64,000 bases of DNA from Tistrella mobilis KA081020-065 (GTDB lineage: Bacteria > Pseudomonadota > Alphaproteobacteria > Tistrellales > Tistrellaceae). Made by a program: the position numbers and the translations under genes. A model generated the notes under the pieces. It was not told where the DNA came from. It ran no database searches and saw nothing but the letters and a program-made list of their open reading frames with translations. This document shows, piece by piece, positions 52,752 to 64,000 of this stretch (positions are counted from its first letter, which is position 1; every line of letters starts with the position of its first letter). The stretch covers positions 479,501 to 543,500 of the forward strand of contig NC_017956.1 of NCBI RefSeq assembly GCF_000264455.2, given 5' to 3'.

Positions 52752-53546
52752 TCAGCGGCCGATGAACCGGGGCGCGCGCTTCTCGACGAAGGCCTGCGCC
52801 GCCTCGCGGTGGTCGGCGCTTTCCGAACAGCGGGTGTGCTGGATCGCTTCCAGATCCATCACCTCCGACAGCGTGCCGGTCTGTGCCAGGTTCATATTGC
52901 GCTTGATGGCGGCATAGGTCAGCGCCGGCCCACGGGCAAGCGTCTCGGCCGTCATGCGAGTCTGGGCCTCCAGGGCCTCGGCGTCGACCACCCGGTTGAC
53001 CAGGCCCAGCTTCTCGGCCGCGGCCATGTCGAGCAGTTCGGCGGTCAGGTAAAGCTCCCGCGCCTTGGCCGGGCCGACGAGTTGGGTCAGGAACCAACTG
53101 CCGCCGAAATCGCCCGACAGCGCCACCTTGGCGAAAGCGGTGGTCATCACGGCGGTGCGGGCGGCGATGCGCATGTCGCAGGCCAGTGCCAGCGACAGGC
53201 CGGCACCAGCTGCGGGGCCGGGCAGGGCCGCGATGGTCGGCTTGCCCATCTCGTGCAGCCAGCGCGACGCTTCCATGACCTGGCGCAGTTCCGTGGCCCG
53301 GCGCTCGCTCGACTTCGCGGCTTCGGCCTCGGCGGTTTCCGCCATGCGCTTGACGTCGCCCCCGGCGCAGAAGGCGCCGCCGGCACCGGTCAGCACCACC
53401 ACACGAACCTCATCGTCGGCGGCGAGCCGGGTGAGGGCCGAGACCAGTGCGGCCAGCATGGGCCGCGACATGGCATTGCGCCGTTCCGGCCGGTTGAGCG
53501 TCAGCCAGGCGACGCCGTTTTCGATGCGTTCGAGCAGTTCCGACAT
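52752..53546 (-). CDS. Enoyl-CoA hydratase/isomerase family protein
   Basis: 264 residues, crotonase fold. GAGGAFCAGGDVKRM and AALPGPAAGAGLSLALACD form the oxyanion hole. The usual second catalytic Glu of hydratases is replaced by a region reading ALSGDFGGSWFLTQLVG; an Asp there is typical of isomerases such as PaaG. Isomerisation of an enoyl-CoA is thus as likely as hydration. It stands alone and converges on gmhB two bases away. Confidence 0.85.
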   Translation of the reverse strand: MSELLERIENGVAWLTLNRPERRNAMSRPMLAALVSALTRLAADDEVRVVVLTGAGGAFCAGGDVKRMAETAEAEAAKSSERRATELRQVMEASRWLHEMGKPTIAALPGPAAGAGLSLALACDMRIAARTAVMTTAFAKVALSGDFGGSWFLTQLVGPAKARELYLTAELLDMAAAEKLGLVNRVVDAEALEAQTRMTAETLARGPALTYAAIKRNMNLAQTGTLSEVMDLEAIQHTRCSESADHREAAQAFVEKRAPRFIGR

Positions 53547-53943: not shown

Positions 53944-55293
53944 ATGAAACGGGTACTTCTCACCACGGCGCCCAAGGAGGCGCTGGTGGAGATGAACGGT
54001 ATCGGCGGCAACTGGTACGATCGCACCGATACTTACATGGCCTGGACCTGCGCCAACGACCTCGCCGACCGCCTGTCGGTGACCTGCCCCCCCACCGGTC
54101 TGAACTTCCTGAAGGCCAATGTGCCGGATGTCGAGGTTCTGGAATATCCCACCTGGGCCGAATACGAAAAGGCGCTCGGCTCCGAGCAGTGGGACATGGT
54201 GGGCATCAGCTTCTACACCTGGTCTGTGCCGGTCGCGATCCAGATGGCGAAACTCGCCCGAGACTACGGGGTGAAAGAAGTCTGGGGCGGCAATTACGGC
54301 GCGATCACGCCCGGAATCCAGCCGCATTTCGACCGGCTGATCAAGGGGCCGGGCGAATACGTGCTGCATCAATACGTCTACGGGCGGCCGCTGGAGCACG
54401 TCACCCATCCGCCGATGATGGGCGAGTCGAGCTTCCGCGGCGTGAGTTCGAAGGTCGGCTATCTCTACAGCAAGCGCGGCTGCAACATCGGCTGCACCTT
54501 CTGCTCGACGCCGGTGTTCAATCCGAAGGAAGACGCGATCTTCATGGAGGACATGGAGTACGCGCTCGACACCTATAAGGAGAACAGCGTCGCCCATGTC
54601 ATCATCTACGACGAGTCGTTCTTCCTGAAGAACGACATCGCCGAGCGGGTGGTCGACGGGCTGGCCAAGCGCGGCCTCGGCTGGATCTGCCTGACGCGTG
54701 CCGATCTGCTGCGCGGCCGGATTTCGGAACTCACCGATCGCTGCATGGATGGCGCGATCATCGGCATCGAAAGCTATCGCGACAAGAACATCGCCGACGT
54801 GCAGAAGCGCGACGACGTCTACAACGTCCGCGCCACCGTCCGCGAGCTGATCAAGAACGGCCGCCGTGCCCTCGGCACCTTCATGGTCGGCTTCCAGGAC
54901 GACAGCATCGAAGACATGGAATACGACATCACCCAGCTGGCCGACGAGGGGCTGTTCGCCTGCCAGCTGACCCTGCTCACGCCCTTCCACGGCACCAAGC
55001 TGTGGAAGCAGATGGAGCATCTGGTGAACGAGCCGGACCTGTCGAAATTCGACCTCTACAACCTGGTCTGGAAGCACCCCAAGATGTCGCCGTCAGAGGC
55101 CCGCGACCTGATGGCCTGGGCCCAGCGCAAGGTGAACGACCCCGGCGTCGTGGCGCAGAAGATCAAGCAGGACATGAAGGAAAAGCTGCGCCGCGAAATG
55201 GCGGCCAAGCGCGGACAGCTGCCGATCGGCAGCCGGCCGTCGCGGCTGGGCGGTGGCATGGCCGCCGGCGCCTTCGCGGCCCCCGAGCGCTGA
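53944..55293 (+). CDS. Radical SAM protein with divergent B12-binding-like domain
   Basis: 449 residues. The 4Fe-4S site is C180-x3-C184-x2-C187 in RGCNIGCTFCSTP. The N-terminal 150 residues have the order of a cobalamin-binding fold, but key places differ from relatives: GGNYGA replaces GGPHA, KGPGE replaces RGEGE, and no DxHxxG motif is seen. B12 binding is therefore uncertain. The radical core continues through IIGIESYRDKNI and MVGFQDD, and the tail (about 400-449) is charged and Ala-rich. First gene of the cluster. It could methylate, cyclise or rearrange an acyl or polyketide substrate. Confidence 0.85.
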   Translation: MKRVLLTTAPKEALVEMNGIGGNWYDRTDTYMAWTCANDLADRLSVTCPPTGLNFLKANVPDVEVLEYPTWAEYEKALGSEQWDMVGISFYTWSVPVAIQMAKLARDYGVKEVWGGNYGAITPGIQPHFDRLIKGPGEYVLHQYVYGRPLEHVTHPPMMGESSFRGVSSKVGYLYSKRGCNIGCTFCSTPVFNPKEDAIFMEDMEYALDTYKENSVAHVIIYDESFFLKNDIAERVVDGLAKRGLGWICLTRADLLRGRISELTDRCMDGAIIGIESYRDKNIADVQKRDDVYNVRATVRELIKNGRRALGTFMVGFQDDSIEDMEYDITQLADEGLFACQLTLLTPFHGTKLWKQMEHLVNEPDLSKFDLYNLVWKHPKMSPSEARDLMAWAQRKVNDPGVVAQKIKQDMKEKLRREMAAKRGQLPIGSRPSRLGGGMAAGAFAAPER

Positions 55294-55407
55294 CCGGCGC
55301 CCGGACCACCTGTTCCGTCTGCTGCCGAAACGCCCGGTACCATCCGTCTGCCGCCCGCCCACCGCAAGGGCGGGCGGCGACGGGGGACCTGTCCAAGGGA
55401 CCGTCCG

Positions 55408-56943
55408 ATGAGCGCGCTCAAGATTCTGGCCATTCAGCTCGGCTTCCATCCCGACTATCCGGATGTGTCGACGCTCGCCACCACCTACAATGACGGCATC
55501 TATTACGTCGCCTCCTTCGTCGCCGATCAGCTCCCCGAGGCACAGCTGGACATGTGCCAGATGTTCTGGGGGGAGAACCCGGCCGATTTTCCGCTGGAGA
55601 GCTACGACGTCATTCTGGTCTCGGCGCTCGCCACCCATTTCTGGTCCAACATCCCGACCCTTGAGACGATCGCCCGGCGGCGGCGCAAGGACTCGCTCAT
55701 GATCATGGGCGGGCCGCATGCGGCTTTCGCCCCGCACGAGGCGCTGAAATATGCCGATGTGGCGGTGATCGGCGAGGGCGAACTGCCGACGCTGGAGTTG
55801 ATCGCCCGTCGCGCCGTGGGCGGCGTCGGCGGCCCGATCGACGACATTCCGAACATCGCCTGGATCGGCGACGACGGCCGGCTCGCCATTTCCGACGTGA
55901 AGCGGTTCGAGAAGGTCTCCACCGCCATCCGCCCGGAGCTGCTGGCGCGGGCGCCGCGGCTGCACTGGGCGACGGTGTCGATGTCGCGCGGCTGCCCCTT
56001 CGACTGCTCGTTCTGCTACGCCATCCGCCTGCTGGGCCGGCGGTTCCGGACCAAGACCGTGCCCGATATCGTGGCCGAGCTGGACGGCATCCATGCCCAG
56101 ACCGGCTGTACCCGGTTCTATGTCACCGATCTCAACTTCACCACCCGGCGCGATTTCTGTCATCAGGTGGCTCAGGCGGTGCGCGACCGGCCCTACAAGT
56201 TCATCTCGATGAGCCGGATCAACCATGCCGACGACATGGATCTGGTGCTGGAGATGAAGGCCTCGGGCTTCGACGAGTATTGCCTGGGCGTGGAATCCGA
56301 AGATCCGGGCGTGCTGCGTGCCTTCAACAAGAAGGTCGATGCCAGCGAGCAGACCGAGCGCCTCTGGCGATTCGCCGAGAACGACGTCTACATCCATTCG
56401 GCGATCATCTTCGGGCTGGAAGCCCAGGATCAGGGCGCCATCCGCCGCACCGCCCGGTGGTGCGCCGATGCCCGGATCGTGCATCCGACCTTCGTTTGCC
56501 TGGCCGAATATCCGTTCCAGAACCTGCTGTTCGGTGCGCGCCAGGACATCGAGGACCACCGGATCATCATGGAGGTTCCGACCTATCAGCACTATTCCTT
56601 CGTCGGCATCTTCCCGCGCCACATGCGCCCCTCCGACCTGCAGCGGGCGATCCTCGACAGCTATGACGTGTTCTTCGAGCGCGCCTTCGAGGTCGAGACC
56701 CGGCCGCAGCGGCGGATGCGTCTGAAATCCTATCAGCGCAGCGTTGCCCAGAGCCGTGGCGGCATGGAACGCCATATCGGCTTCCTCGAGAATCTGGAGA
56801 CGCCCTACTACACCCGCGAGGGCACGCTGAAAGAGGATCTGCTGCTGGGGGATTTCGAGGCCCGGCACGGTGCCACCCGTGACTGGCTGGCCCAGTCGGC
56901 CCGTGGGGCCGAGCCGGCCTTCGCCAAGGCCTATGCCCGCTGA
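55408..56943 (+). CDS. B12-binding-domain radical SAM protein
   Basis: 511 residues. N-terminal cobalamin-type domain (about 1-150) with MGGPHAAFAPHEAL and VIGEGELPTLEL, as in BchE-like and methyltransferase-like enzymes. The radical SAM site is C196-x3-C200-x2-C203 in RGCPFDCSFCYA, then LGVESEDPGVLRAFNKKV. A C-terminal extension of about 110 residues carries conserved-looking aromatic residues. Members of this class methylate unactivated carbons or make ring closures. It lies 114 bases after the first radical SAM gene and 20 before the acyl-AMP ligase. Confidence 0.88.
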   Translation: MSALKILAIQLGFHPDYPDVSTLATTYNDGIYYVASFVADQLPEAQLDMCQMFWGENPADFPLESYDVILVSALATHFWSNIPTLETIARRRRKDSLMIMGGPHAAFAPHEALKYADVAVIGEGELPTLELIARRAVGGVGGPIDDIPNIAWIGDDGRLAISDVKRFEKVSTAIRPELLARAPRLHWATVSMSRGCPFDCSFCYAIRLLGRRFRTKTVPDIVAELDGIHAQTGCTRFYVTDLNFTTRRDFCHQVAQAVRDRPYKFISMSRINHADDMDLVLEMKASGFDEYCLGVESEDPGVLRAFNKKVDASEQTERLWRFAENDVYIHSAIIFGLEAQDQGAIRRTARWCADARIVHPTFVCLAEYPFQNLLFGARQDIEDHRIIMEVPTYQHYSFVGIFPRHMRPSDLQRAILDSYDVFFERAFEVETRPQRRMRLKSYQRSVAQSRGGMERHIGFLENLETPYYTREGTLKEDLLLGDFEARHGATRDWLAQSARGAEPAFAKAYAR

Positions 56944-56963
56944 GCCGCGGAGGCGTGCCCGAG

Positions 56964-58760
56964 ATGACCATGGCGACCTCTCCTGCGGACCCGCATTTCC
57001 GTAGTTTCCATGACGCGTTGCCTGCGGCCACCACCTGGGAGGCGGTGGCCCGTGGGGCCGAGACCGCCCCCCATGGCTTCGCCTTGCGCGTGATCGAACG
57101 CGGCGGCGCCGAGGCGGTGCTGACGCGCGGCGATCTTGCGACGCTCGCCGCCGCCGGCGCCCGGGCTCTGGCGGCGGCCGGCATCGCGGCCGGTGATCGC
57201 ATCGTGCTGGCGCTGCCGGCCTCGCGGCTGTTCCTGGCGCTGCATCTGGGCGCCGGTGCGATCGGTGCCCTGCCGGTGGTCGTGGCCCCGCCCGCCGTGC
57301 CGGTGCCGGATCCCGCCCGCGCCCATCTGGCCGATATCGCCCGCAGGGCGGGCGCCCGGCTGCTGATCGCCGAGGCGGAACCGGCCGCGGCACTCGATGG
57401 CCTGGAGGCGCAGGCCCCCGGATTGACGGTTGCCGCGGCCGACCGGCTGCTGGCGGCGGGGCTGCGTGCAGCCCTGCCGGCGATGACCGCCGATCCCCGC
57501 GGCATTTCGCATCTTCAGCAGACATCGGGATCGACCGGAGCACCCAAGCTCGCGGTGGTGCATCACGACCGGCTCTCGGCCAATCTCGCCCAGATCGCGG
57601 CGGCGATCTGCCGGGGGCCCGAGGGTGTGGGTGGCGATGTTCTGGTCTCGTGGCTGCCGCTCTCCCACGATATGGGGCTGGTCGGGCTCAATTATGCGCT
57701 CCGTTGGGGCGTGCCCATGGTGCTGGCCGATACCGGCGAGTTCGTCCGCAATCCGATGAACTGGCCGGCCTGGATGTCGCGGCACAAGGGGACGCTGTCG
57801 CCGGCGCCCAACAGTGCTTTCCAGATGTGCGCGCGCCTCGCCCGGCTGCGCCCGCCGCGCGGGCTGGACCTCTCGGCCTGGCGGGTGGCGCTGTGCGGGG
57901 CGGAACCGGTTCATGCCCGCACCCTGCAGGATTTCAGCGCCGCCTTCGGCAGCCACGGTTTCGCGCCCGAGACCCTGCGCCCGGTCTATGGCCTGGCCGA
58001 GGCGACGCTGGCGGTGGCGATCCCGCCGGTGGGTGGCTGCGTGACCGACCCGGTCGATGCCGACCGGCTGGCGGCCGAAGGGGTGGCCGCACCGGCGGGA
58101 GACGAAGCCGGGCGCCGGCTCCATGCCGTCACCTTGGGGCCGGCCGTGCCGGGGGCTGCGATCCGCATCACCGCGCCCGACGGCACTGAACTGCCCGAAC
58201 GCCGGGTCGGCGAGATCGAGGTCGCCAGCCCCGCGACCGTCGGTGGCTATTGGCAGGATCCGGCCGAAAGCGCCCGGCTGACCCGGCCTGACGGCTGGCT
58301 GCGCACGGGCGATCTGGGCTATCTGGCCGATGGCCGGCTGCATGTCACCGGCCGGGCCAAGGATCTGCTGATCCTGGGCGGGCGCAATTTCACGCCTGCC
58401 CAGATCGAAGATGTGGCCGAAGCCGCGGCCGATGCCGCGATCACGCCCGCGGTCATCGCGGTCGGCCTCACCGACGAGACCATCGGCACCGAAACCCTGC
58501 ATCTGCTGCTCGACACCCGCCTCGGCCCCGAAGAGGCGCGTCCCGCCATTGCCCAGCGCATCCGCGATGCCCTGGCGGAGGCTTTCGGCCTGACCGGCAT
58601 CGGCACGCATTGGATCGCCGCCGGCCTGGTGCCGCGCACCCCCAGCGGCAAGGTTCAGCGCTTCCGCTGCCGCGAGATCGTGGCAGCGCGCCTGGCGGAC
58701 CGTCAGGCCGCGGCCTCAAAAAACAAGACGACACCCGCCCCAGGGAGGATCACCGGATGA
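56964..58760 (+). CDS. Fatty acyl-AMP ligase (FAAL)
   Basis: 598 residues, ANL superfamily. Motifs TSGSTGAPKL, LPLSHDMGLVG, YGLAEATLAV, RTGDLGYL and TPSGKVQRF. The LPL-HDMG and GLAEATL signatures and the length fit FAALs, which make acyl-adenylates and pass the acyl chain to an acyl carrier protein rather than CoA. GCGGAGG lies ten bases before ATG 56964; GTG 56955 is an alternative. It overlaps the PKS start by ATGA, strongly suggesting it loads a fatty acid starter for the PKS. Confidence 0.92.
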   Translation: MTMATSPADPHFRSFHDALPAATTWEAVARGAETAPHGFALRVIERGGAEAVLTRGDLATLAAAGARALAAAGIAAGDRIVLALPASRLFLALHLGAGAIGALPVVVAPPAVPVPDPARAHLADIARRAGARLLIAEAEPAAALDGLEAQAPGLTVAAADRLLAAGLRAALPAMTADPRGISHLQQTSGSTGAPKLAVVHHDRLSANLAQIAAAICRGPEGVGGDVLVSWLPLSHDMGLVGLNYALRWGVPMVLADTGEFVRNPMNWPAWMSRHKGTLSPAPNSAFQMCARLARLRPPRGLDLSAWRVALCGAEPVHARTLQDFSAAFGSHGFAPETLRPVYGLAEATLAVAIPPVGGCVTDPVDADRLAAEGVAAPAGDEAGRRLHAVTLGPAVPGAAIRITAPDGTELPERRVGEIEVASPATVGGYWQDPAESARLTRPDGWLRTGDLGYLADGRLHVTGRAKDLLILGGRNFTPAQIEDVAEAAADAAITPAVIAVGLTDETIGTETLHLLLDTRLGPEEARPAIAQRIRDALAEAFGLTGIGTHWIAAGLVPRTPSGKVQRFRCREIVAARLADRQAAASKNKTTPAPGRITG

Positions 58761-61700
58761 ATGCGCCCAAGGATATGGCCGCCGCAGAGGCCGCCGCCGT
58801 GGTTTCCTCCGTGGCCGAGCCGGTCGCCATCATCGGCATCGGCTGCCGTCTGCCGGGCGGTGCCTCCAGCCCGGCGGCCTTCTGGTCGCTGCTCCGCAAC
58901 CGGGTGGATGCCATCCGCGAGGTGCCCTCCGATCGCTGGAACGCGGCCCTGTTCCACCATCCTGATCCGGCCTCCCGTCCCGGCACCGTCGGCACCCGCA
59001 TGGGCGGTTTCCTGGACGGCATCGACCGCTTCGACCCAGGCTTCTTCGGCATCTCGCCGCGCGAGGCGCAGCTGATGGATCCCCAGCAGCGCCTGCTGCT
59101 CGAATCGGCCGTCGACGCCCTCGACGATGCCGGGCTGAAGCTTGAAGACATCGACGGCACGGATGTCGGCGTGTTCATCGGCATCGCGGCCTATGACTAT
59201 GCCGAAATCCAGCACGGCATGGCCAATCGCGAGCTGATTTCCGGCCACACCAATACCGGCCTCGCGCTTTCGATCGCCGCCAACCGCATCTCGTATCTTC
59301 TGAACCTCAAGGGGCCGAGCGTTGCGGTCGACACCGCCTGTTCCTCGTCTCTGGTCGCCCTCCACCTCGCCTGTCAGTCGCTGCGATCAGGCGAAAGCCG
59401 GGCGGCGATCGTGGGCGGGGTCAATGCGATCCTGAAGCCGGAGCCGACCATCGGCTTCAGCCGCGCTTCGATGCTGGCGCCGGATGGCCGCTGCAAGACC
59501 TTCGATGCCCGCGCCAACGGCTATACCCGCGGCGAGGGCGCCGGCATCGTCGTGCTGAAGCCGCTCTCGGCCGCGCTTGCCGACGGCGATCCGGTCTATG
59601 GCGTGATCAAGGCCACGGTCGTCAACCAGGACGGCCATACCAACGGCATGACCGTGCCGGGCGAGGATGCCCAGGCGCGCATGCTGGAGACCGCCTATGC
59701 CCGGGCCGGCATCGTGCCTGGCACGCTGCAATACATGGAAGCCCATGGCACCGGCACGCCGGTCGGCGACCCGATCGAGGCCCGCGCGCTCGGCCGCGTG
59801 CTCTCTCAGGGCCGGCCGGATGGCGATCGCTGCCTGGTCGGGTCGGTGAAGACCAATATCGGCCATCTGGAGGCGGCGGCGGGCATTGCCGGGCTGATCA
59901 AGGCGACGCTCGCCCTTCATCACCGGCATGTGCCCTCGAACCTGAATTTCGAGAGCCCCAACCCCGAGATCGATTTCGATGGGCTGAAGCTCGAGGTCGC
60001 GAGCAGCGACCGGCCCTGGCCGGATAACGGCCATCCGCCCCGCGCGGGCGTCAATTCCTTTGGATTCGGCGGCACCAACGCCCATGCGGTGCTGGAAGCG
60101 GCACCCGCCGAAGCCGTGCGCCCGGCCCTGTCGGACGAGGGGGCGCCTGGCATCGCCTCCGATGCCGGCAGGACCGGCGCACCCGTCCTGATCCCGGTCT
60201 CGGCCCGCAGCGCCGAGGCGCTGGCCGAGGCCGCCCGCCACCTGGCGGAGGCGTTGACCGACGAGGCACAGCCGGCCCGGCACCGGCCGCTCGCGGAGGT
60301 CGCCGCCTGGGCGGGCACCCGGCGCAGCCAGCACGATCACCGGCTCGCTGTCGTGGCGGCCGACCATGCCGAGGCGGCGGAACGGCTGCGCGATGCCGCT
60401 GCCGGCACCGCCGGCCCCGGCATCATCGCCGGCCGCGGCCGGGCCCGTTCTGCGCCCGGCAACCCGGTCTATGTCTTCTCGGGCATGGGCCCGCAATGGT
60501 GGGCGATGGGCCGCCAGCTGATCGAGCGCGAACCCCTGTTCCGGGTCGCGATCGAGGAATGCGATGCCCATCTGCGCGCGGCCGGCGCGCCCTGGTCGCT
60601 GATGGACGAGATGTGCCGCGACGAGGCACAGAGCCTGATGGCCGAGACCTATATCTCGCAGCCCTCGAACTTCGCTCTTCAGGTCGGCCTCGCCCGGCTC
60701 TGGAGCCATTGGGGCATCCGGCCCGCGGCCATCGTCGGCCATTCGACCGGCGAGGCGGCCGCCGCACATGTCGCCGGCCAGCTGGACCTCGCCACCGCCT
60801 GCACCGTGATCTATCACCGCTCACGCGTGCAGCAGCGGGCCAGCGGCAAGGGCCGCATGCTGGCGGCGGCGCTGACCGAGGCCGAGGCGCTGGAGCGGAT
60901 CGCCCCCGTGGCCGACCGGGTGTCGATCGCGGCCATGAACGGCCCCGGCATCCTGACGCTCGCGGGCGATGCCGAACCGCTGGAGGCCATCGCGGCGGGC
61001 CTTGCCGCAGAGGGGCGGTTCAACCGCTTCCTGACCGTGGCCGTGCCCTTCCACAGCCACCACATGGATCCGCTGCGCGAGGATCTGGAAGCCTCGCTCG
61101 CCGCGATCCGGCCGGCTGCGGCGGACCTGCCGCTCTATTCCACCGTCACCGGCGATCTGGCGGAGGATCTGCCCTATGACGCCGCCTATTGGTGGCGCAA
61201 TGTCCGCCAGCCGGTGCGCTTCGCCGATGCGATCCGCAGCCTGATCCGCGACGGCCATCGAACCTTCCTGGAGGTCGGGCCGCATCCGGTCATCTCATCC
61301 TCGATCGACGATACCGCGGGCGAGCTGGGCGAGCGGGTGATGACGGCGCATTCGCTCCGCCGCCAGACGGAAGAGCGTGCGGTTCTGCTCGGCAATCTGG
61401 GCCAGCTCTATGCCGCCGGCCACCGGGTCGACTGGCAGGCGGTCTCGGGCGTCGACCGGCTGCGGCCGGTCCGGCTGCCGGCCTATCCCTGGCAGGACAA
61501 GCGCTACTGGCAGGAGGTGGCGGAGAGCCTGGACGGCCGCGCCGGCCTGCCTGCCCATCCCTTCATCGGCCGGCGGATCGCCGCTGGCCTGCCGCTCTAC
61601 GAGATCCGCATCGATCTGGAGCGGCTGCCTTATCTCGCCGACCATGCCGTCGGCGGCTCGGTGCTCTTCCCCGGTGCCGGTTTCATCGAAGCGGCGCTTG

Positions 61701-64000
61701 CGGCCTGGACCGCGGCCATGGGCGCCGTGCCGGCCGCGGTCGAGGATGTGCGCTTCCTGAAGGCCCTGATCCTGGGGGCCGATCGGGCGGTGAAGCTGCA
61801 GGTGGCGCTCGATCCCGCCAGCGGTGGCGCGCGCGTCCTCTCCCGGCCGCTGGGTGAGGACGAGGCGCCGTGGACGCTGCACGCGTCCATGACGCTGAAG
61901 GCTCAGGGGGCGCTCCCGGCTCAGGCCGTGGACCTGGCGGCAGCAGCGGCCCGCTGCATTGACGTCGTGGAGGATCGTGGCTACGGCGCCTTCGCGGCCC
62001 GCGGGCTGAATTACGGCCCGGCCTTCCAGGCCATCGCGGCGCTGTCGCGCGGGCCGGCCGAGGCGCTGGCCCGGCTGACCCTGCCGGCCGCGGCGCGGGC
62101 GGGCGACGGCGCGCCGGATGCCGCGGGCGGCTATCTCTTCCATCCCTCGCTGCTGGATGCCTGTTTCCAGGCGGTGCTGGGCGCGATCGACAGCCGCAGC
62201 GCGGCCGCCGGTGCCTATCTGCCGGTGGCGGTGGAGCGGCTCAGGCTGTCGGGGCCGATCGACGACGGTGCCGAACTCCACGCCCATGCCCGGCTGCTGA
62301 CGCTGAATTCCAGGCAGCTGGATGCCGATATCCGTCTGACCGATGCGGCGGGTCGGGTGCTGGCCGAGGTGCAGGGCTTCTCGTGCATGGCGCTGGATCA
62401 GGCCGAGGGCGGCCGCGGCGCCGGCCGCGACATCGACCGCCGGCTGTTCGCCGAGCATTGGGTGGAGCAGGCGGCGGGCGTCGTGGCGGCGGATCTGCCC
62501 GATCCGGCCGATCTGGTCGACGAAACCCGGCCGATGGTGCTGCCGCTGATCCGCAAGCTCGACCGCGCCGGCTATTATGCCGAGGCGCAGCCGCTGCTCG
62601 ACCGGCTGACCGCCGCCTATGCCGCCCGCGCCTTCGCCGAGCTGGGCATCGACGCCGATGCGCCCGATCCGGCGCGGGTCGATCCCGTTCATCACCGGCT
62701 GCTGGCACGGCTGGCCCAGGTGGTCAGGGCCGAGACGGCGACGGGCCCGTTGCCCGAGCCCGAGGTGCTGGGCGCCGAGATCGACCGCCGTCATGCCGGG
62801 CTTGCGCCTGAGATGGTGCTGATCCGCCGCTGCGGCGAAGCGCTGGCCCGGGTGCTGACCGGGGCGCAGGATCCGCTGGATCTGATCTTCCCCGACGGGT
62901 CGCAGGTCGATGCCGAACGGGTCTATCGCGACAGCCCGAGCTTCGGCACCTATAACCGCATCCTGGAACAGGCGGTCCGCGCCCTGATCGACCGGCTGCC
63001 GGCCGACCGGCCGCTCAGGATCCTGGAGATCGGTGCCGGCACCGGCGCCACCGCCGCCCATCTGCTGCCGGTGCTGCCGGCCAGCCGCACCGATTATGTC
63101 TTCACCGACATTTCCACCGCCTTCACCACCAAGGCCGAGCAGAAGTTCCGCGCCTTCGATTTTGTCCGCTACCGCCTGCTCGACATCGAGAAGGAGCCGG
63201 CGGCCCAGGGCTTCGCGCCGGCGAGCTTCGACCTGGTGGTGGCGACCGACGCGCTTCACGCGACCCGGGCGATCGACACCGCAATTGCCCATGCCGCCGG
63301 TCTGCTCCGTCCGGGCGGGTTGATGGCGCTGGTCGAGCTGACCGCGCCGCCGCCCTGGTTCGATCTGGTCTTCGGCATGCTCAAGGGCTGGTGGGCCTTC
63401 GACGACGCCGGAACCCGTCCCGATCATGCCTGCATGACCCTGCCGGCCTGGGAAGCGGCGCTCATGCGCGCCGGCTGCCCGGCGGTGGCGGCGCTCGACG
63501 ACCGCGAGGATGGCGGGGCGACCGTTCACAGCGTCATCCTGGCCCGGCGGTCGACCACCGAGACCGCCCGGACTACCGGCGAGGCGCCGGCGGCCGAGAC
63601 CGACGAGTTGGATGCTCTGCTGGGGCTCAGCACCATCACCCGGGCAAAGCCCGGCTGGCTGGTGCTGGCCGATGGTCGTGGTGTCGGTGCGGCGGTTGCC
63701 GCAGCGCTTGAGGCGCGCGGCCATCCCGTGAGCACCGTGACGGCCGGCGAGGTTGCCGACATCCGTGGCCTGGTGGACCGGGCGCTGATGGATCTGCCCG
63801 AGGTGGGCGGCATCCTGCATCTCTGGTCGCTCGATGCCGGCCCGACCGAAGCGGCCGACATGACGGCCGTGGAGGCACGTGGTGCTGCGGTCCTGATGGA
63901 GCTGGTCCAGGCGGTGACCGATCCGAGTTTCGGCAATCCGCCACGCCTGGTGCTGGCGACTTCGGGTGCCCGGCGGGTGCGGCCCGACGATCCGGCCCCC
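58757..64000 (+). CDS. Highly reducing-type type I polyketide synthase, 3' truncated
   Basis: At least 1748 residues; the frame is open to the window end. Ketosynthase about 20-445 with active C195 (DTACSSSL), H330 (EAHGTGTP) and H370 (GHLEAAAG). Acyltransferase about 570-880 with S663 in GHSTGE; VPFHSHH around H766 is of the malonyl-type FH class. Dehydratase about 930-1220 with H963 in HAVGGSVLFP and D1134 in DACFQ. C-methyltransferase about 1290-1570 with LEIGAGTG at 1423-1430. A structural ketoreductase-like region starts near 1610. No loading or carrier domain precedes the ketosynthase. The order resembles iterative reducing synthases. ATG 58757 overlaps the ligase stop. Confidence 0.95.
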   Translation, partial: MNAPKDMAAAEAAAVVSSVAEPVAIIGIGCRLPGGASSPAAFWSLLRNRVDAIREVPSDRWNAALFHHPDPASRPGTVGTRMGGFLDGIDRFDPGFFGISPREAQLMDPQQRLLLESAVDALDDAGLKLEDIDGTDVGVFIGIAAYDYAEIQHGMANRELISGHTNTGLALSIAANRISYLLNLKGPSVAVDTACSSSLVALHLACQSLRSGESRAAIVGGVNAILKPEPTIGFSRASMLAPDGRCKTFDARANGYTRGEGAGIVVLKPLSAALADGDPVYGVIKATVVNQDGHTNGMTVPGEDAQARMLETAYARAGIVPGTLQYMEAHGTGTPVGDPIEARALGRVLSQGRPDGDRCLVGSVKTNIGHLEAAAGIAGLIKATLALHHRHVPSNLNFESPNPEIDFDGLKLEVASSDRPWPDNGHPPRAGVNSFGFGGTNAHAVLEAAPAEAVRPALSDEGAPGIASDAGRTGAPVLIPVSARSAEALAEAARHLAEALTDEAQPARHRPLAEVAAWAGTRRSQHDHRLAVVAADHAEAAERLRDAAAGTAGPGIIAGRGRARSAPGNPVYVFSGMGPQWWAMGRQLIEREPLFRVAIEECDAHLRAAGAPWSLMDEMCRDEAQSLMAETYISQPSNFALQVGLARLWSHWGIRPAAIVGHSTGEAAAAHVAGQLDLATACTVIYHRSRVQQRASGKGRMLAAALTEAEALERIAPVADRVSIAAMNGPGILTLAGDAEPLEAIAAGLAAEGRFNRFLTVAVPFHSHHMDPLREDLEASLAAIRPAAADLPLYSTVTGDLAEDLPYDAAYWWRNVRQPVRFADAIRSLIRDGHRTFLEVGPHPVISSSIDDTAGELGERVMTAHSLRRQTEERAVLLGNLGQLYAAGHRVDWQAVSGVDRLRPVRLPAYPWQDKRYWQEVAESLDGRAGLPAHPFIGRRIAAGLPLYEIRIDLERLPYLADHAVGGSVLFPGAGFIEAALAAWTAAMGAVPAAVEDVRFLKALILGADRAVKLQVALDPASGGARVLSRPLGEDEAPWTLHASMTLKAQGALPAQAVDLAAAAARCIDVVEDRGYGAFAARGLNYGPAFQAIAALSRGPAEALARLTLPAAARAGDGAPDAAGGYLFHPSLLDACFQAVLGAIDSRSAAAGAYLPVAVERLRLSGPIDDGAELHAHARLLTLNSRQLDADIRLTDAAGRVLAEVQGFSCMALDQAEGGRGAGRDIDRRLFAEHWVEQAAGVVAADLPDPADLVDETRPMVLPLIRKLDRAGYYAEAQPLLDRLTAAYAARAFAELGIDADAPDPARVDPVHHRLLARLAQVVRAETATGPLPEPEVLGAEIDRRHAGLAPEMVLIRRCGEALARVLTGAQDPLDLIFPDGSQVDAERVYRDSPSFGTYNRILEQAVRALIDRLPADRPLRILEIGAGTGATAAHLLPVLPASRTDYVFTDISTAFTTKAEQKFRAFDFVRYRLLDIEKEPAAQGFAPASFDLVVATDALHATRAIDTAIAHAAGLLRPGGLMALVELTAPPPWFDLVFGMLKGWWAFDDAGTRPDHACMTLPAWEAALMRAGCPAVAALDDREDGGATVHSVILARRSTTETARTTGEAPAAETDELDALLGLSTITRAKPGWLVLADGRGVGAAVAAALEARGHPVSTVTAGEVADIRGLVDRALMDLPEVGGILHLWSLDAGPTEAADMTAVEARGAAVLMELVQAVTDPSFGNPPRLVLATSGARRVRPDDPAP

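Follow-up and report, generated by a model that had tools for sequence, protein, structure and literature searches.

The window, a stretch of 64,000 nucleotides from Tistrella mobilis (G000:C1:479501-543500; genome of 6.5 Mb in 5 contigs), ends inside an operon of seven genes that encode two radical SAM proteins (RS1 and RS2), a fatty acyl-AMP ligase (FAAL), a PKS, a hotdog thioesterase, a stand-alone ACP and a FabF-like ketosynthase (KAS). The coordinates of the operon and its upstream neighbour, listed below, follow the window numbering, which is continued past the window end.

52752-53546, reverse strand: crotonase-family gene, just upstream of RS1
53944-55293, forward strand: RS1 (Radical_SAM domain, E = 2.9e-12; CNIGCTFC motif)
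55408-56943, forward strand: RS2 (Radical_SAM, E = 3.7e-14; B12-binding domain PF02310, E = 4.4e-11; CPFDCSFC motif)
56955-58760, forward strand: FAAL (AMP-binding domain, E = 2e-48)
58757-66373, forward strand: PKS of one module, KS-AT-DH-cMT-ER-KR-ACP, cut by the window end at 64000
66426-66860, forward strand: hotdog thioesterase (4HBT domain)
66931-67182, forward strand: stand-alone ACP, 3' of the thioesterase gene
67200-68534, forward strand: FabF-like KAS, the last of the seven operon genes

An earlier note on this window had described four adjacent genes on the same strand, the last two sharing ATGA, which combine an acyl-AMP ligase, a PKS with a C-methyltransferase and two radical SAM proteins, at least one of them of the B12 type. 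Coordinates and domain searches confirmed both the layout, in which a 4-base ATGA overlap joins the FAAL and PKS genes, and the combination of enzymes. The sequence beyond position 64000, which the note had proposed to obtain, completed the PKS gene to 66373 and added the thioesterase, ACP and KAS genes on the same strand. The G+C content was lower in RS1 (0.632), RS2 (0.648) and ACP (0.587) than in FAAL, PKS and KAS (0.71-0.73). In the window species and in G033, a genome of the same genus, KAS is directly followed by a tandem of three genes (68678-70380) that carry phage tail collar domains and separate KAS from a carbon-nitrogen hydrolase gene. At that place in a third genome of the genus, G162, the tail-collar genes had no match, and a carbon-nitrogen hydrolase gene directly followed KAS.

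RS1 and RS2 each have a Radical_SAM domain and a CxxxCxxC motif, the two features that define the radical SAM superfamily, and the cluster cysteines of both motifs were invariant in all nine aligned sequences, the window included. The B12-binding domain of RS2 precedes the radical SAM core, and the protein is predicted to belong to the cobalamin-dependent class. A profile search of solved structures with RS2 found TokK, 9ccb (MgmA, a radical SAM core protein), CysS and OxsB. Foldseek ranks 1-12 for a low-confidence RS2 model (mean pLDDT 66.8) were all B12-fold radical SAM enzymes (OxsB, MgmA, CysS, TsrM and AprD4), with a clear gap before rank 13. Solved structures of CysS are titled with pantetheine-bound (pantetheinylated) substrates, and since CysS was found by the RS2 profile, a carrier-bound substrate appears plausible for RS2.

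The N-terminal part of RS1 shows a B12-type Rossmann pattern, while the Pfam search gave no B12-binding match for this protein and its profile found nothing in the PDB at E <= 0.01. Its model, also of low confidence (pLDDT 60.5), had AprD4 at rank 1 and AprD4, MgmA, CysS and TokK across Foldseek ranks 1-6; these were closely followed by further radical SAM proteins and by ordinary barrels, and many ordinary barrels had similar Z values in a second structural comparison, which therefore argues against no fold family. The best NCBIfam model was BchE, an oxidative cyclase, for RS2 and HpnJ for RS1, and both proteins scored far below the cut-offs of these and all other NCBIfam models listed. Among the best 20 of 25 matches to RS1 in the plasmid collection, one was 76.3% identical and the other 19 were 21.4-26.2% identical; for RS2, the best 12 of 93 matches comprised one at 70.1% and 11 at 22.0-27.5%. 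Because the NCBIfam scores were under cut-off and the further plasmid matches listed were only distant, RS1 and RS2 look like isolated families. RS2 resembles the B12 radical SAM enzymes BchE, OxsB, CysS and TokK in its B12-binding domain and radical SAM core, its CxxxCxxC motif and its fold, but differs from them in falling far below every listed equivalog cut-off.

The closest PDB match of the FAAL was 3pbk, a fatty acyl-adenylate ligase. Of its 18 PDB matches at E <= 1e-30, seven were named fatty acyl-adenylate ligase or FadD23/FadD28/FadD32, and the other 11 carried names such as acyl-CoA synthase, polyketide synthase or adenylation domain. The two best NCBIfam models were fatty acyl-AMP ligase (336.6 bits against a cut-off of 600) and acyl-CoA ligase (328.3 bits against a cut-off of 572), and the protein stayed under the curated cut-off of all NCBIfam models listed. 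The TSGSTG motif for ATP/AMP binding is present. The alignment to 3pbk showed no large gap through the stretch behind the YGLAE motif, where we take the FAAL-specific insertion, which lowers CoA ligation, to be placed. In S. orinoci, one of ten relatives checked, the FAAL gene (L007 12846-14540) contains in-frame stops and is either broken or affected by an assembly error.

The PKS is a reducing, single-module protein of 2538 aa with KS, AT, DH, methyltransferase (1399-1574), ER, KR and ACP domains. Its catalytic motifs are present, including the KS Cys and two His, the AT GHSxGE, the DH His and Asp motifs, the glycine motif of the methyltransferase, the nucleotide motifs of ER and KR, the KR Ser/Tyr and the LGLDS of the ACP. 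By domain set and catalytic motifs it is a highly reducing type I PKS, and the domain search found no thioesterase domain in it. Among solved structures the best match was mycocerosic acid synthase (MAS), which has the same domain set without the methyltransferase and uses a methylmalonyl extender; the methyltransferase domain places the present PKS outside the MAS family. The AT motif reads, by our assumption, malonyl-like, so that the methyltransferase domain of the PKS itself would introduce the methyl branches. The operon resembles the FadD28-MAS pathways in having a FAAL beside a single-module reducing PKS that is most MAS-like among solved structures, but differs from them in the C-methyltransferase and the malonyl-like AT motif. 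By analogy with these pathways, a methyl-branched saturated chain would be expected here. To our knowledge, a B12-type radical SAM pair, a free ACP and a His-less ketosynthase are all lacking from the mycobacterial FadD28-MAS pathways. The PKS gene of a Telmatospirillum metagenome-assembled genome (MAG; L034 5470-13102, continuing in L035) lies in two overlapping frames, again a broken gene or an assembly error.

KAS proteins from the window, nine actinobacteria and Telmatospirillum (n = 11) were aligned with E. coli FabF as the yardstick. The active-site Cys and the Lys were kept in 11/11, the first catalytic His was replaced by Gln in 10/11 and the second by Tyr in 10/11. The window protein has Gln and Tyr, and thus lacks the Cys-His-His set of a decarboxylating beta-ketoacyl synthase. 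According to Rattray et al. 2009 (PMC2649909), both His of FabF are indispensable for malonyl decarboxylation. With the Cys kept and the two His replaced, KAS probably acts as a shuttle that transfers acyl chains rather than condensing malonyl. The only one of the 11 to keep both His is the KAS of S. olivoreticuli (L010 14815-16077), which might still condense malonyl. The ACP Ser was present in 5/5 sequences inspected. The actinobacterial thioesterase has 132 aa and is 80-92% identical to the S. camelliae copy in 8/9 loci; its alphaproteobacterial counterpart resembles a second hotdog family more than it does this actinobacterial protein.

Short peptide patterns, scanned across 84,980 species genomes, yielded eight loci, seven in actinobacteria (five Streptomyces, one Streptantibioticus and one Actinocrinis) and one in the Telmatospirillum MAG. 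The plasmid collection contributed one further actinobacterial locus (S. camelliae), and genomes sampled from the genus of S. alfalfae another (G639). Gene presence was counted by tblastn, as simple ORF calling had missed FAAL and other genes. The order RS1-RS2-FAAL was kept in all 13 loci, nine actinobacterial and four alphaproteobacterial; the ligase, most FAAL-like by its matches, therefore belongs with both radical SAM genes, as the earlier note had assumed. RS1-RS2-FAAL-ACP-KAS, with the thioesterase right behind, was found in 9/9 actinobacterial loci. The search for the four-gene set across genomes, also suggested by the note, located the PKS only in alphaproteobacterial loci: it lies between FAAL and ACP in 4/4 of these, which represent two lineages, and was absent from 9/9 actinobacterial loci (20-41 kb each, tblastn), where PKS matches corresponded to KAS. 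Telmatospirillum and the two other genomes of the window's genus share the order RS1-RS2-FAAL-PKS-ACP-KAS; the thioesterase gene precedes ACP in the window's genus and lies behind KAS on the other strand in Telmatospirillum.

These patterns changed the picture of a lipo-polyketide cluster drawn in the earlier note: as the PKS is absent from the nine actinobacterial loci, this name misses the essence of the gene set, whose core looks like a cassette for acyl editing. They also spoke to the concern that the radical SAM genes might belong to an unrelated conserved operon: the operon is indeed conserved and independent of the PKS, but it includes the acyl-AMP ligase. Flanking genes mostly varied between loci. 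A crotonase-family gene sits just behind the thioesterase in 5/9 actinobacterial loci (L007, L008, L010, L013 and L033), and the window and Telmatospirillum likewise have genes of this family, about 30% alike, close upstream of RS1.

RS1 of the window was 72-76% identical to its actinobacterial counterparts and 71% to that of Telmatospirillum; RS2 was 70-71% and 75% identical, respectively. Towards actinobacteria, the identities of RS1 and RS2 (about 70-77%) exceeded those of FAAL (45-49%), ACP (53-59%) and KAS (48-51%). With the radical genes most conserved and the chain-handling genes more variable, the radical reaction is probably the same in all cassettes, while the length or the fate of the chain differs.

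Selection within the genus was assessed by comparing the window species with its two close relatives, G033 and G162. The dN/dS values ranged from 0.00 to 0.17 across the eight genes compared (the seven operon genes and the crotonase neighbour). RS1 was the most constrained (0.017 vs G033 and 0.000 vs G162) and KAS the least (0.170 and 0.168); in the same order, the values were 0.044 and 0.036 for RS2, 0.034 and 0.059 for FAAL, 0.064 and 0.068 for PKS, 0.049 and 0.143 for the thioesterase, and 0.070 and 0.092 for ACP. All operon genes are maintained by selection. A chance cluster was ruled out by these low values and by the gene order kept in relatives.

A shared set of flavin-related and ATP-grasp-type genes (set identity 58-81%) adjoins the cassette in 2/9 actinobacterial loci, on the S. 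camelliae plasmid and in Streptantibioticus rubrisoli, at the following positions.

L015 1719-31350: cassette and flavin neighbourhood of S. camelliae
L008 17735-20816 and L043 2447-17117: cassette and flavin neighbourhood of Streptantibioticus rubrisoli

The set comprises ribA, ribC, ribX, a substrate-binding protein, BKACE, a methyltransferase, a GNAT/FemAB-like gene, two ATP-grasp-type genes and a gamma-glutamyltransferase. An FMN riboswitch adjoins the cassette in both species. The cassette-side riboswitch of S. rubrisoli is followed by a DHBP synthase (ribB) gene, and that of S. camelliae by a similar ribB-type frame (L015 17887-18552) that was named by eye only. The nine actinobacterial genomes contain 11 FMN riboswitches, and only S. 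camelliae and S. rubrisoli have a second copy, one of the two adjoining the cassette. The full flavin set was found neither around the other seven actinobacterial cassettes (about 36-61 kb each) nor in 103.5 kb around the window; the search there gave only single matches, among them a 45% ribA-like hit in the S. olivoreticuli genome, a SigJ gene and ABC ATPases. In S. camelliae and S. rubrisoli, the cassette may supply the acyl part of a larger flavin-related product.

Control by B12 through a cobalamin riboswitch was considered and rejected, as 12 stretches covering 11 cassette loci (two of them for Telmatospirillum) contained none at the gathering score; the only riboswitches in these stretches were FMN riboswitches, in two of them. 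A general link to roseoflavin was likewise discarded, as RosB matches (E <= 1e-10) occurred in 4/11 genomes and, with the exception of the S. camelliae copy that had served as the query, were 35-42% identical and lay away from the cassette. The window genome has a RosB-like frame (G000:C2:345106-345786) of 35% identity with two in-frame TGA codons.

Given the gene set, its order, domains, motifs, co-occurrence and selection, we infer a pathway in which substrate, step order and chemistry would be as follows. The FAAL would convert a free fatty acid to an acyl-AMP and load it onto the stand-alone ACP, as family knowledge and gene layout suggest. RS1 and RS2 would then act on the acyl-ACP at an unactivated carbon, and KAS, with its Cys and without the two His, would hand the edited chain on. 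The natural acceptor from KAS in the window species would be the PKS, which has a fully equipped KS, and this MAS-like enzyme with its own C-methyltransferase would add methyl-branched, saturated units in alphaproteobacteria. The hotdog thioesterase would free the chain and end the pathway. We put the chances of such a mobile cassette for fatty-acyl editing, with FAAL loading, RS1 and RS2 editing, KAS transfer, thioesterase release and the PKS as an optional extension, at about even.

Several accounts of the radical step compete within this framework. The formation of a ring or of another new C-C or C-O bond, similar to the reactions of BchE, HpnJ or OxsB, is a tentative proposal, and plain methylation is about as likely. 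The fuller version of the former, in which RS1 and RS2 are co-dependent B12-fold enzymes that build a ring or C-C bond at unactivated positions of a FAAL-activated, ACP-bound fatty acid, within a self-contained cassette that spans phyla, uses a His-less KAS as its shuttle and feeds host-specific larger pathways (the MAS-like PKS in alphaproteobacteria, the flavin and ATP-grasp genes in two actinobacteria), is possible, and we hold it with less than even confidence. The methylation account, by which RS2, alone or possibly together with RS1, would act as a simple cobalamin-dependent C-methyltransferase and place one or more methyls on an ACP-bound chain, draws on the methylases TokK, CysS, MgmA and TsrM among the profile and fold relatives and on the methylase models PhpK and HpnR among the NCBIfam matches. 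However, the best models were BchE and HpnJ, for all their low scores, and methylation alone does not explain the constant pairing of two unlike radical enzymes; we hold this account, too, with less than even confidence.

The editing cassette of the window species could also be read in another order, with the FAAL loading the PKS directly, KAS moving the finished chain to the ACP and RS1 and RS2 acting last. Such direct loading is the role ascribed to FadD28 towards mycocerosic acid synthase, the present PKS is closest to that synthase among solved structures, and its gene lies between FAAL and ACP, with ACP and KAS downstream. This late tailoring nevertheless appears improbable to us, since the actinobacterial cassettes have no PKS and the radical pair thus seems not to need its product. 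We would give similarly little credence to a reaction of RS1 and RS2 on a non-acyl partner, such as a flavin or amino acid unit, with the fatty acid being attached afterwards: the FMN riboswitch and the flavin, ATP-grasp and GNAT genes beside two of the nine actinobacterial cassettes are consistent with it, as is a tandem pair of ATP-grasp ligase-type genes that precedes the S. cupreus cassette by about 4 kb (L013 3124-5840), but the lack of the full flavin set at the other seven cassettes and around the window argues against it. Finally, the PKS missing from actinobacterial cassettes might indicate that the four genes are unrelated neighbours, or that the PKS is a separate pathway beside an acyl cassette. 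The 4-base overlap of the FAAL and PKS genes and the position of the PKS inside the cassette, ahead of ACP and KAS, in 4/4 alphaproteobacterial loci make this highly improbable.

The earlier note knew of no characterised pathway with this gene set, and a search of the open-licence literature turned up no cluster that joins FAAL and radical SAM enzymes like the present one. The ladderane clusters of anammox bacteria, as described in PMC2649909, are alike in having an ACP, radical SAM enzymes of which one carries a B12 domain, and a 'phenylacetyl-CoA ligase' among their shared genes. They are also alike in FabF paralogues with both His substituted, which lie beside the radical SAM genes and were suggested to recruit foreign acyl units (PMC2649909). 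They differ in that the passages of PMC2649909 considered name no PKS gene and the paper nowhere uses the term 'AMP ligase', and in that the Cys of Kuste3348 is also replaced, by Ser (PMC2649909), whereas the present KAS keeps it. RS2 matched the ladderane B12 model weakly (1.7e-15; 56.6 bits against a cut-off of 360), and both RS1 and RS2 scored far below the cut-off of the ladderane radical SAM equivalog TIGR04072.

Few enzymes break the unactivated C-H bonds of plain fatty acids, and those that do are useful. RS1 and RS2, for which the collections searched contain no close relative outside the cassette, travel across two phyla together with a loader, a carrier and a release enzyme. The actinobacterial version, with six genes, is compact enough for expression as a whole, allowing the radical pair to be tested directly, and the version with the PKS shows how an edited acid might serve as the starter of a polyketide. 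The cassette may also bear on the role of FabF paralogues that lack the two His and lie beside radical SAM enzymes, which PMC2649909 did not settle for ladderanes.

The cassette is rare in the small samples examined at strict E thresholds. RS1 and RS2 occurred together in the same 3/295 Streptomyces of a genus sample, one of which was the search centre. RS1 was found in 3/385 Alphaproteobacteria sampled (E <= 1e-20), all of the window's genus and including the window, in 1/398 Pseudomonadota (E <= 1e-50), the window's own genome, and in 1/394 genomes sampled from the class of Actinocrinis (E <= 1e-40), the search-centre genome. This patchy presence, together with an identity of about 75% across phyla, points to horizontal transfer of the cassette between phyla. 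Elsewhere in the window genome, a stretch on G000:C4 (L041 3807-4494) was 72.6% identical in DNA to a gene for a KedN5-family B12 radical SAM methyltransferase on a Streptomyces plasmid, which further hints at exchange between the window lineage and Streptomyces.
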